64,000 bases of DNA from an uncultured Pelagibacteraceae bacterium (GTDB lineage Bacteria > Pseudomonadota > Alphaproteobacteria > Pelagibacterales > Pelagibacteraceae). The notes under the pieces were generated by a model. It was not told where the DNA came from. It saw nothing but the letters and a program-made list of their open reading frames with translations, and searched no databases. Location: NCBI GenBank assembly GCA_902596915.1, contig CACJVQ010000002.1, forward strand, positions 1-64,000. Direction: 5' to 3'. Positions 47,493-52,736 of this stretch are shown one piece after another. The position numbers and the translations under genes are program-made. Each line of letters begins with the position of its first letter. The first letter of the stretch is position 1.

Positions 47493-48593
47493 TTAATTTA
47501 TTCCGTTTAACTTACAAGAGCTATCAAAATCCTCTTTGTTAATATAACACCCTGACATTTTTCTAACTCCATTAAACGATCCTCTACCATGAAGTATTCG
47601 CCAATTATTAAATATTAGAAGTTCTCCAGGTTTAAGTATATGTCGCCACTGATAATCTTTGTTATTAGCAATAAGATCAAATTTTTTAATTGCTTCATAA
47701 AACTTTAATGTTAAATCTTTTTCAAATCTAAATGGTGCTCGATCATAATTATTAAAACTAACTTGAACTATTTCATTATTTTCATTTAACTTAAATATTG
47801 GTCTTTCAGCCTCAAGATAAACACCATCACCGATATAATTTCCCTTAACATTTATTTTTGTCATTAATTCATACATCGGCTGGTTTTCTTTTTTTATTGT
47901 TTCTGCTATTTTTAATCCATCAACCATAATCGATTCACCACCTTTAGCATTATATTCGCAACAAAGTAGTAATTGTAATCCAGGAGCGTCATTACTATAT
48001 GTTGAATCTGTGTGAGGTCTGAGTTCTTCTTGAGTGTATGCGCTATCAGCTTTATTTTCATCTGACTCAAAACTCCATAGTCCTCCAAATATAGAATTTC
48101 TTACGTAACCAATTCTATTTGCAATTGTTTCAACAGACTTTAAATTGGTTTCACAGTTTTTAATTACTGAAAATCCATGGTCATAAAGATTTTTCAAAAA
48201 ATTTCTAAATCCTTCATTTGATAAAATTGAATTATAATCTAAAAAAATTTCTTCTTTTATTTCATTAGCTTTCCAGATTTTTAAATTAGATTTTACTTCT
48301 TTTTTCTTTTTTAATTTATTATTAGTTAGAAATTCAGATGAATATTTAACTGGTTTTTCTAAATCAGGCCATGAGACACTCATATATTTTCCATTTTCAA
48401 TTATTTCTGCCTTTTTAACTTTTAAATTTATATCTAATGCTGCTGTATATGTTTTCCTTTGACTAGACCTTTTATCCCAATTTTGTTCATCTTTTGCATG
48501 ATCTCTTAGCCAAATATTAGGAAAAATTTCAGAATTTTCTCCATTGAAGTGGACGTGTACATCATCTGCTAATATTTCAATTTTAGTAATCAT
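47493..48593 (-). CDS. Gamma-butyrobetaine hydroxylase-like Fe(II)/2OG dioxygenase
   Basis: N-terminal IWLRDHAKDEQNWD; LRPHTDSTYSNDAPGLQLLLC, NNWRILHGRGSF. Confidence 0.85.
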   Translation of the reverse strand: MITKIEILADDVHVHFNGENSEIFPNIWLRDHAKDEQNWDKRSSQRKTYTAALDINLKVKKAEIIENGKYMSVSWPDLEKPVKYSSEFLTNNKLKKKKEVKSNLKIWKANEIKEEIFLDYNSILSNEGFRNFLKNLYDHGFSVIKNCETNLKSVETIANRIGYVRNSIFGGLWSFESDENKADSAYTQEELRPHTDSTYSNDAPGLQLLLCCEYNAKGGESIMVDGLKIAETIKKENQPMYELMTKINVKGNYIGDGVYLEAERPIFKLNENNEIVQVSFNNYDRAPFRFEKDLTLKFYEAIKKFDLIANNKDYQWRHILKPGELLIFNNWRILHGRGSFNGVRKMSGCYINKEDFDSSCKLNGIN

Positions 48594-49516
48594 TTACTCA
48601 AATTATATGCAAAATTAGAACCAAGATTATCTTTTAATTCGTTATTAAATTTAGCAGCCTCAGCTCCATCTATAATTCTGTGATCATATGAGAGGGATAG
48701 TGGAAGCATGGTTCTTGGAACAAATTTACCATCAATAAATACCTGTTTTTTATAACTTCTACCAACGCCAAGTATAGCAACTTCTGGAAAGTTAATTATT
48801 GGTGTAAAAAACGATCCACCTATGCCACCTAAGCTTGTGATAGTCATTGATCCTCCAAAGAACTCTTTTTTATCAATTTTTAAATTTCTACAATCATCAC
48901 TTACTTTTTTTAATTCCTCACTTAACTGATTGATATCTTTTTGATTAGCATCTCTAATTTTAGGAACCATAAGTCCATGTTGAGTATCAACTGCGATACC
49001 AACATGAAAATACTTTTTAAAAGTAATCTTTCCATTTTCAATATCATCAATTGATGAATTAAATGATGGAAATTTTTTTAGTGAAAGTACTAATGCTTTT
49101 ATAATAAATGCAAGAGGAGTAATTTTTATTCTTTCTCCTGTATAATTATCTTTTATTGAACTTCTAAATTCTTCCATTTCTGTAATATCAGCCTCATCAT
49201 GGTTAGTTACATGTGGAATGTTTGTCCACGAATTTACAAGATGTGGAGCTGCTATTTTTTTTACTCTAGGAATATCTTTAATTTCAACTTCCCCAAAATC
49301 TGAATGTTGATATTCACTTTTAATAATTTTTTCTTTTTGTCTTTCACTATTATTCTGAGGATGATTGATTCTAGATGAGACAAAATCTTTTAAATCTTTT
49401 TCAACAACTCTACCTGACCTCTCTGTTCCCTTAACATTATTTATATCTACTCCCAGTTCTCTTGCAAATTTTCTAACTTTTGGACTTGCAGATATTTTAT
49501 TTGATTGATCAGACAT
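48590..49516 (-). CDS. aceF: Dihydrolipoyllysine acetyltransferase (E2) lacking a lipoyl domain
   Basis: 308 aa: peripheral subunit-binding domain (ASPKVRKFARELGVDINNVKGTERSGRVVEKDL) plus catalytic domain with SYDHRIIDG. Confidence 0.88.
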   Translation of the reverse strand: MSDQSNKISASPKVRKFARELGVDINNVKGTERSGRVVEKDLKDFVSSRINHPQNNSERQKEKIIKSEYQHSDFGEVEIKDIPRVKKIAAPHLVNSWTNIPHVTNHDEADITEMEEFRSSIKDNYTGERIKITPLAFIIKALVLSLKKFPSFNSSIDDIENGKITFKKYFHVGIAVDTQHGLMVPKIRDANQKDINQLSEELKKVSDDCRNLKIDKKEFFGGSMTITSLGGIGGSFFTPIINFPEVAILGVGRSYKKQVFIDGKFVPRTMLPLSLSYDHRIIDGAEAAKFNNELKDNLGSNFAYNLSK

Positions 49517-52500
49517 TTACATTTTTGTTGGCATGGGTTTATTTTTATCGATTTTATACTTTTTGAATGCATCTTCAGCATACTTTGATGCAACAAGCTG
49601 TTCATTGGCTAAGACGCTAAGGCTATAAGCAACTATGTGTTCTTTATCTACTTCAAAAAAATTTCTTAAGTTTTTTCTTGTGTCACTTCTTCCATATCCA
49701 TCAGTACCTAATGAATAAAAGCTCTTTTTTGTAAAAGGTCTTATTTGATCAGCATTTATTCTCATATAGTCAGTGGCTGTAAGGATAGGACCTTGTTGTT
49801 TGCCTAAACATTCCTCTACATATGATTTTTTATTTGTTTCTGCGGGATTTAGAAGGTTAAATCTTTCAACTTCCATTCCATTTTTTCTTAACTCATTAAA
49901 ACTAGTAACACTCCAAACTTCACTATCGACCTGATATTCTTTTTTGAGAATTTCTGATGCTGCCATCATTTCTCTTAGTATTGTTCCAGAGCCTAATAAT
50001 TGAATTTTTACATCTTTAGAATCTGATGTTTCTTTAATTTTGTACATTCCCTTGAGAATTCCATCCTCACAATCCTTTGGCATTTCGGGGTGAGAGTAAT
50101 TTTCATTCATTGTAGTAATATAATAAAAAATATTTTCATTTTTTTCGTGCATCCTTCTTAAACCTTCTCTAAAAATCACAGCTAATTCATAATGGAATGT
50201 TGGATCATAAGAAATGCAGTTTGGAATTGTTGATGCTAACAAATGGCTATGACCATCTTGGTGTTGAAGACCTTCTCCTGCAAGTGTTGTTCTTCCTGCA
50301 GTCGCACCAATTAAAAAACCTCTCGCTTGACTATCTCCTGCAGCCCAAGCAAAATCTCCAATTCTTTGAAAGCCAAACATAGAATAGAAAAGATAAATTG
50401 GTATCATTTCAATATCATGATTTGTATATGCTGTTCCAGCTGCTATCCAAGAAGACATTGAACCGGCTTCTGTAATACCTTCTTCTAATACCTGACCACT
50501 TTTTTCTTCTCTATAAGATGAAAGTTGTGCTGAGTCCTCTGGCTCATATTTTTGGCCTTCATGAGCATAAATACCTATTTTTTGAAAGAAACCTTCCATT
50601 CCAAATGTTCTAGCTTCATCGGGAATAATTGGAACTAATTTTGGTGCAACATTTTTATCTCTCAAAAGATTTGTTAGCATTCTTACTAATGCCATTGTTG
50701 TGGACATTTCCTTTTCCCCAGTAGACTTTTTCATAAAATCAAAAATATCTTTCACTGGAGCTTTAATCGGTTTTGAATATGATGTTCTCTCTGGTATAAA
50801 ACCACCAAGTTCTAGTCTTCTTTTTTTTAAGTATTTAATCTCTTCAGAATTTTCGCCTGGTTTGAAATATTCAATATTTTTGACTTGAGAGTCTGTTAAA
50901 GGAACATCAAACCTATCTCTATAATACATTAAATCGTCAACATCTAATTTCTTTTGTTGGTGAGTAGTGTTTACACTTTCACCACTTTTACCCATACCAT
51001 AGCCTTTTATAGTTTTGGCTATTATAACTGTGGGACTTCCTTTGTGATTGACCGCTTTATCATATGCAGCATAAACTTTATGAGGATCATGACCTCCTCT
51101 ATTCAATCGCCAAATATCAGTATCTGACATTGATGAAACTAATTCTGTAGTTTCAGGATATTTGCCAAAAAACTTTTCTCTTACATATAGTCCATTTCTT
51201 GCTTTAAATGCTTGATATTCACCATCTACGGTCTCATTCATAATTTTTACTAAATGTCCCGTCTTATCATTTGCTAAAAGTGAGTCCCAATAAGATCCCC
51301 AAATAACTTTTAAAACATTCCAGCCGCCGCCTCGAAAAATACCCTCTAATTCTTGAATTATTTTTCCATTTCCTCTTACTGGACCGTCTAATCTTTGTAA
51401 GTTGCAGTTTACAACAAATATTAAATTATCTAAATTTTCACGCGCCGCTAAACCAATTGCCCCAAGTGACTCAGGTTCATCCATTTCTCCATCTCCAAGA
51501 AAAGCCCAAACTTTTCTTCCCTCATCTTTAATCAATCCTCTATTAATTAGGTATTTCATAAATCTCGCTTGATATATTGCTAGCATTGGACCAATACCCA
51601 TTGAAACTGTTGGAAACTGCCAAAAATTTGGCATTAGCCAAGGATGAGGATAAGATGAAAGTCCACCAGTTTGTACTTCTTGTCTAAATCTATCTAACTG
51701 CTTTTCATTTAGTCTTCCCTCAAGAAAAGCTCTTGCATACATACCTGGTGCACTATGACCTTGAAAATATACTAGATCACCTCCAAATTTATTATTTTTT
51801 GCTCGCCAAAAATGATTCATACCAACATCATATAACGTTGCAGCTGATGCAAATGTTCCTATGTGACCGCCAAGTTCAGGATATTTTTTATTTGCTCTTA
51901 CTACCATAGCAGCAGCATTCCATCTAATTAATGATCTTAACTTACGTTCTATGTTTTGATCTCCAGGTGATCTTTTTTCCTCTTCAGGTGGTATAGTATT
52001 TACATATGGAGTAGTTTGAGTATGAGGAATTTTAGATCCAGCTTTGTAAGATTGATCAATTAATTGTTTAATTAAAAAATGAGCTCTTTCAGAACCATCA
52101 TTTTGTAGAACTGCACTTAAGGAATCTAGCCACTCTTTAGTTTCGACAGGATCAATATCGTCGTTACTACTAACCATTTTAACTTCATTAATCAATCTTG
52201 TTTGCTTGATTAGTTTTGGCTCTATAACTTTTGTTTCAACTTTTAAGTCAGATTTTGTAGCAGTTTCTGCTTCCTCTATTAATTTCTCTGTTGAAGGTGG
52301 GATTTTTTCGTCTAAGGTTTTGCTAATTGTCTCATGTTCAGCTTTGTTTTCCGAAGATAGAGTTAATATTAAATCACCTTTTGAAACTTTATCACCAATT
52401 TTTACATTTATATTTTCAATTATGCCTTCATAATTGGATGGTACTTCAACGCTTGATTTATCACTTTCCAAAGTGACAACAGGGTCATTTTTATTGATTT

Positions 52501-52582
52501 TGTCCCCTTTTTTTACAAGTACTTCGATTATTTCAACACTTTCAAAGTCTCCTATATCAGGAACTAATAAATCTAGATTCAT
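49517..52582 (-). CDS. aceE: Pyruvate dehydrogenase E1 (AceE type) with N-terminal lipoyl domain
   Basis: N-terminus PDIGDFESVEIIEVLVKKGDKINKNDPVVTLESDKSSVEVPSNYEGII (lipoyl), then homodimeric E1 from about residue 145. Confidence 0.92.
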   Translation of the reverse strand: MNLDLLVPDIGDFESVEIIEVLVKKGDKINKNDPVVTLESDKSSVEVPSNYEGIIENINVKIGDKVSKGDLILTLSSENKAEHETISKTLDEKIPPSTEKLIEEAETATKSDLKVETKVIEPKLIKQTRLINEVKMVSSNDDIDPVETKEWLDSLSAVLQNDGSERAHFLIKQLIDQSYKAGSKIPHTQTTPYVNTIPPEEEKRSPGDQNIERKLRSLIRWNAAAMVVRANKKYPELGGHIGTFASAATLYDVGMNHFWRAKNNKFGGDLVYFQGHSAPGMYARAFLEGRLNEKQLDRFRQEVQTGGLSSYPHPWLMPNFWQFPTVSMGIGPMLAIYQARFMKYLINRGLIKDEGRKVWAFLGDGEMDEPESLGAIGLAARENLDNLIFVVNCNLQRLDGPVRGNGKIIQELEGIFRGGGWNVLKVIWGSYWDSLLANDKTGHLVKIMNETVDGEYQAFKARNGLYVREKFFGKYPETTELVSSMSDTDIWRLNRGGHDPHKVYAAYDKAVNHKGSPTVIIAKTIKGYGMGKSGESVNTTHQQKKLDVDDLMYYRDRFDVPLTDSQVKNIEYFKPGENSEEIKYLKKRRLELGGFIPERTSYSKPIKAPVKDIFDFMKKSTGEKEMSTTMALVRMLTNLLRDKNVAPKLVPIIPDEARTFGMEGFFQKIGIYAHEGQKYEPEDSAQLSSYREEKSGQVLEEGITEAGSMSSWIAAGTAYTNHDIEMIPIYLFYSMFGFQRIGDFAWAAGDSQARGFLIGATAGRTTLAGEGLQHQDGHSHLLASTIPNCISYDPTFHYELAVIFREGLRRMHEKNENIFYYITTMNENYSHPEMPKDCEDGILKGMYKIKETSDSKDVKIQLLGSGTILREMMAASEILKKEYQVDSEVWSVTSFNELRKNGMEVERFNLLNPAETNKKSYVEECLGKQQGPILTATDYMRINADQIRPFTKKSFYSLGTDGYGRSDTRKNLRNFFEVDKEHIVAYSLSVLANEQLVASKYAEDAFKKYKIDKNKPMPTKM

Positions 52583-52659: not shown

Positions 52660-52736
52660 GCGCCTGTAGCTCAATTGGATAGAGCGCTTGGCTACGGACC
52701 AGGAGGTTCTGGGTTCAACTCCTAGCAGGCGCACCA
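52660..52736 (+). tRNA. tRNA-Arg (ACG)
   Basis: GCGCCTGTAGCTCAATTGGATAGAGCGCTTGGCTACGGACCAGGAGGTTCTGGGTTCAACTCCTAGCAGGCGCACCA; loop CTACGGA. Confidence 0.96.

Follow-up and report, generated by a model that had tools for sequence, protein, structure and literature searches.

Pyruvate dehydrogenases of SAR11 bacteria with a lipoyl domain on AceE-type E1 and, in several lineages, none on E2

In the textbook pyruvate dehydrogenase (PDH) the swinging arm is carried by E2. A locus in an uncultured Pelagibacteraceae bacterium (assembly GCA_902596915.1, contig CACJVQ010000002.1) raises the question of whether E1 can carry it instead: in the 64,000-nucleotide stretch analysed here, which we call the window, two adjacent genes specify an AceE-type E1 headed by a lipoyl domain and an E2 that has none (Table 1). 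Is the E1 arm the only one available to this enzyme, and how did it come to be there? Our preferred answer, to which we give a probability of about 0.8, is that the cell's PDH has its swinging arm on E1 and not on E2, through an early gain by E1 and a later loss by E2, and that the E1 arm works with a shared E3.

The E1 of the preliminary description, a homodimeric-type enzyme of 1021 residues with a complete N-terminal lipoyl domain, is borne out by profile searches: Pfam Biotin_lipoyl (PF00364) matches residues 6-75 at 67.9 bits (cut-off 22.1), TIGR00759 (aceE) matches residues 139-1019 at 1435 bits (cut-off 859.9), and the competing exception model TIGR03186, at 1284 bits, falls under its cut-off of 1408. 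The protein departs from the usual AceE layout of about 890 residues without a lipoyl domain, a layout on which TIGR00759 sets no condition. Residues 141-1018 align with residues 6-883 of E. coli AceE (1l8a), and the catalytic positions H106, H142, H407, E571 and H640 of the latter correspond to H240, H276, H541, E705 and H774, all of them kept and all invariant in 12 aligned SAR11 E1s. By the same alignment the AceE N-terminal region, the contact site for the subunit-binding domain of E2, is still present behind the added domain. Structure prediction gives an all-beta lipoyl domain with pLDDT of about 71-84; for the full E1 it was poor (mean pLDDT 46) and is usable for this domain only. The linker, by the domain cuts used, is 40-64 residues long across relatives.

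Table 1. Positions in the window of the E1 and E2 genes and their parts.
Feature	Position	Strand	Details	Basis
aceE-type homodimeric pyruvate dehydrogenase E1	49517..52582	-	1021 aa; N-terminal lipoyl domain	TIGR00759
E1 lipoyl domain	52349..52582	-	residues 1-78; motif ESDKSSVEV; predicted lipoyl-Lys42	PF00364
E1 linker	52166..52348	-	residues 79-139; low model confidence	pLDDT about 30-45
E1 catalytic body	49517..52165	-	residues 140-1021 and stop; includes AceE N-terminal region	1l8a alignment
Lipoyl-less E2, dihydrolipoyllysine acetyltransferase	48590..49516	-	308 aa	E3_binding and 2-oxoacid_dh
E2 peripheral subunit-binding domain	49391..49492	-	residues 9-42	PF02817, 45.9 bits

The E2 proves likewise to be as described, a protein of 308 residues that starts with the subunit-binding domain and lacks a lipoyl domain: Pfam places E3_binding at residues 9-42 and 2-oxoacid_dh (PF00198) at 78-298, and the profile search returns no PF00364 match on it. 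Its score against the AceF-type model (TIGR01348 / NF008814) is 333 bits, under the cut-off of 552; the catalytic motif DHRIIDG is intact, AceF of E. coli (7b9k) ranks first among solved relatives, E. coli E2p is the best sequence match, and the cubic-core E2p proteins of E. coli and Azotobacter are among the top solved folds. At four loci of a lipoyl-less clade (L053, L062, L210 and L211) the DHRxxDG motif of E2 reads DHRxxNG, the Asn being probably equivalent to Asn614 of Azotobacter E2p (titles of PDB 1dpb-1dpd).

An E2 lipoyl domain might nevertheless be there and have been overlooked, through an error of assembly or gene calling, the more so as the window genome is a fragmented metagenome-assembled genome (Pelagibacteraceae, SAR11; 1.01 Mb, 44 contigs, 78% complete). 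The junction of the two genes speaks against this: E1 ends in ...AAAATGTAA and the ATG of E2 follows at once, with zero spacer, so that a missed in-frame start, the weak point named in the preliminary description, cannot provide E2 with a lipoyl domain. The same E1/E2 architecture is found in separately assembled genomes (L034-L036), and its recurrence in many such genomes, belonging to several distinct lineages, means that it is no assembly artefact; the count of PF00364 domains, moreover, is identical in 12 relatives, as detailed below. We consider the probability of an overlooked domain to be negligible.

A second place to look for an arm is elsewhere in the genome. The closest named relatives by E1 are uncultured Pelagibacteraceae genomes at 98% identity; next to the E1-E2 pair are genes for a dioxygenase of the trimethyllysine/gamma-butyrobetaine type and for an EamA transporter, and a tRNA-Arg (acg) gene (window 52660-52736, + strand) sits just upstream of E1 on the opposite strand. 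The assembled part of the window genome holds three PF00364 domains, those of SucB, AccB and E1. Exactly three are found also in each of 12 relatives whose E2 lacks a lipoyl domain, that of E1 among them every time (G004, G005, G463, G472, G533, G550, G577, G614, G484, G554, G025 and G616; six are 90-96% complete). A second lipoyl-bearing E2 for pyruvate, which the preliminary description had named as the finding that would undo its reading, is thus seen neither in the window genome at its 78% completeness nor in these 12 relatives. An alpha/beta E1 is likewise missing from the window genome, in which the single full-length E1_dh match is SucA. No E3 gene adjoins E1-E2, as was first remarked: the only E3 found, of about 471 residues, is on contig C10 near sucA-sucB, and must therefore be common to both complexes; it has no lipoyl domain, not being among the three PF00364 places. 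Of the lipoylation genes, lipA is present in all seven genomes tested, and the lipB model matched in four of the seven; the window genome (G000), G004 (96% complete) and G472 give no match, a point against the reading proposed here. These three may rely on a different octanoyl transferase or on a lipoate ligase.

The SucB domain offers another way for a lipoyl-less E2 to be served. E1 and E2 might form part of a hybrid complex that borrows the lipoyl domain of SucB in trans, leaving the E1 domain an accessory; SucB does carry such a domain, the only E3 found is encoded near sucAB and so must be shared, and OdhA is a documented case of a lipoyl group supplied in trans (PMC10415282). An accessory role fits poorly, however, with the conservation of the E1 domain, whose ESDKSS motif, with the lipoyl-Lys, is kept in 98 of 98 complete SAR11 E1s, including every lineage with a lipoyl-less E2. 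It also fits poorly with the type of the domain, for profile scores give 92 bits with the long-type acetyltransferase model, that is, the AceF type, against 42 with sucB and 21 with E1-beta. We hold such borrowing to be very unlikely. The last of these scores also disfavours the alphaproteobacterial E1-beta as source of the domain. The rate at which the E1 lipoyl domain evolves, relative to the core, is 1.74 where E2 has no lipoyl domain and 2.08 where it has one, with a wide spread among clades (1.08-2.77), and sole-arm E1 domains are not consistently slower-evolving in this comparison.

How widespread is the arrangement? A PDH-type E2 (best match below 1e-50) occurs in about 193 of 250 genomes sampled from the genus, and in 58 of these (30%) the E2 frame is short, about 296-334 residues; most other frames are of about 415-455 residues, a few being cut by contig ends. 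Among genus members having a PDH E2, about 70% retain the E2 lipoyl domain alongside that of E1 and about 30% lack it; some genome records in these counts may be the same genome twice. Reading of individual loci gave 55 with one lipoyl domain each on E1 and E2, and 43 with one on E1 only. Two loci of the sister genus g5 (L248 and L249) have an E1 of about 1110 residues with two tandem lipoyl domains, beside a one-lipoyl E2. Outside this 55/43/2 count stand two loci with E1 cut by a contig end, one with E2 cut off, and one (L175, in the single draft genome G472) with a frameshift in the E1 linker between lipoyl domain and body, which may be a sequencing error or real. Every complete PDH E1 read in this genus and the sister genus has the lipoyl domain. 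The earlier claim of an E1-only arm accordingly stands for the assembled part of the window genome and for some 30% of the sampled genus members that have a PDH E2, and not for the remainder.

The domain search across SAR11 and other genomes that the preliminary description proposed confines the E1 lipoyl domain, among the loci read, to SAR11. In an order-wide search, AceE appears among the matches listed only in this family, with none in the listed genomes of a second family; none of 47 non-SAR11 loci (beta- and gammaproteobacterial and other) has a lipoyl domain on AceE, their E2s, where found, mostly having one or two; and among the matches listed from 399 surveyed genomes across the phylum no non-SAR11 AceE match reaches the lipoyl residues. 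Of twelve unusually long proteobacterial AceE frames taken as possible further fusions, none of those that could be read (all but L268, which gave no E1 anchor) shows an upstream lipoyl motif. Two loci of relatives with E1-alpha/beta-like genes (L272 and L273), considered as an alternative PDH, lie among sugar-nucleotide-type genes with no E2 seen beside them.

Some SAR11 genomes carry a second AceE-like protein, of 884-891 residues and 52-53% identical to E1 (L247 and L250-L252, in G158, G027, G013 and G010; also in G011 and G018). It has no lipoyl domain and no E2 is seen alongside it; at L250-L252 its gene adjoins histone-deacetylase-like and methionine sulfoxide reductase-like genes. At the other extreme, 15 genus members of 86-97% estimated completeness (G1031, G1059, G1087 and G009 among them) have no AceE match, and some SAR11 may, as far as such genomes indicate, do without this pyruvate dehydrogenase or have another route to acetyl-CoA.

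To follow the history of the two domains we built a tree from the E1 and E2 cores, excluding the lipoyl domains (91 rows, 1186 columns; a quick method with a single-matrix model). Presence of the E2 lipoyl domain changes state five times on it, all five changes being forced by well-supported branches, and a tree constrained to unite the lipoyl-less E2s in one group is rejected (delta lnL 837, AU p 7.5e-13), which speaks against their single origin. Trees of E1 alone and of E2 alone require seven changes each, which implies that gene-level noise or recombination is present. Parsimony counts of this kind carry no direction, losses and some regains by recombination counting alike; an early loss of the E2 domain in the genus, reversed in some lineages by recombination with lipoyl-bearing alleles, is conceivable, as the undirected five changes and the excess in the single-gene trees would allow. 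Set against this, nearly all E2s read in the sister genus and in the beta- and gammaproteobacteria have a lipoyl domain, which makes loss the simpler direction, and the lipoyl domains borne by E1 and by E2 form largely separate lineages, with five label changes within SAR11. Fewer losses combined with regains are, on balance, unlikely.

We conclude from these comparisons that an AceF-like lipoyl domain probably joined AceE early in SAR11, drawn from an AceF-type source while E2 kept its own, and that the E1 arm would have made the E2 copy redundant, to be deleted repeatedly in several lineages, that of the window included; genome streamlining is a plausible driver. Relocation from E2 to E1, as initially proposed, does not hold as a one-step move, since the E1 domain mostly stands beside a lipoyl-bearing E2 and loss came later and more than once. 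The history appears better described as a gain on E1 followed by about five separate E2 losses.

How would such a complex work? We infer that E1 is lipoylated, that it assembles with E2 and that its arm services the E2 core. Lys42 of E1 is expected to be lipoylated in a LipA-dependent manner, and the E1 dimer would attach to the E2 core by way of the peripheral subunit-binding domain, each dimer bringing two arms on flexible linkers of roughly 60 residues. The arm would be reductively acetylated in the E1 active site, transfer its acetyl group to CoA within the E2 core and, once spent, be reoxidised by the single E3 that would serve PDH and 2-oxoglutarate dehydrogenase alike. With the arms on E1, their number per complex should follow E1 occupancy and not E2 copy number.

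Lipoyl domains are not restricted to E2 in other bacteria. In some alphaproteobacteria the alpha/beta PDH carries one on E1-beta, its E2 keeping its own; the E2 of Mycoplasma hyopneumoniae is not known to have one; and that of Neisseria / Alcaligenes (Ralstonia) retains one. E2 of the E. coli / Azotobacter type bears one to three lipoyl domains (PMC8421416), and this AceE-AceF-Lpd system resembles that of SAR11 in its homodimeric E1, in the same catalytic residues and in an AceF-type E2 core with a subunit-binding domain; it differs from the window in having lipoyl domains on E2 and none on AceE, the reverse of the one and none seen here. In the alpha/beta PDH of Zymomonas the E1 subunit PdhA has a lipoyl domain (PMC7873978). 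The alpha/beta enzymes are thus like those of SAR11 in having an E1 subunit that bears a lipoyl domain, but that E1 is of another family than AceE, and the resemblance looks convergent because the SAR11 domain is AceF-like (92 against 21 bits). In M. hyopneumoniae it is E3 (PdhD) that carries the arm, with lipoylation at Lys42 (Matic et al. 2003, cited in PMC7873978), and by the same source the Neisseria / Alcaligenes (Ralstonia) PDH also has a lipoyl domain on E3; both share with SAR11 a lipoyl domain outside E2, and both differ in its position, the window genome having its arm on E1 and an E3 without one. Actinobacterial OdhA depends for its E2 activity on the lipoyl group of another protein, AceF, in trans (PMC10415282), as the lipoyl-less SAR11 E2 would on that of E1, but OdhA is an E1-E2 fusion and acts on 2-oxoglutarate.

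We found in the open-access literature no account of a homodimeric AceE with a lipoyl domain, none of an arm on E1 alone, and no paper that treats lipoyl domain, pyruvate dehydrogenase and SAR11 together; SAR11 aceEF is noted in PMC10030771, in passages that leave its domain layout unmentioned. With lipoyl domains outside E2 already known, the AceE-borne and repeatedly arisen E1-only arm is a new variant. It probably represents a class of SAR11 PDH in which the sole acyl arm is on a homodimeric E1 while E2, free of lipoyl, serves as scaffold and catalyst, a class with some five independent origins made possible by the ancestral E1 arm.

Labelling the E2 of SAR11 an ordinary AceF gives, on this evidence, an incomplete annotation. 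In a bacterial group that is among the most abundant in the ocean, a central enzyme has its arms on E1, and the loss of the E2 arm on about five separate occasions amounts to a natural experiment in which the E1 arm appears to be enough for the E2 core. A classical question, that of whether the choice of subunit to bear the lipoyl domain makes a difference, thereby becomes directly testable.
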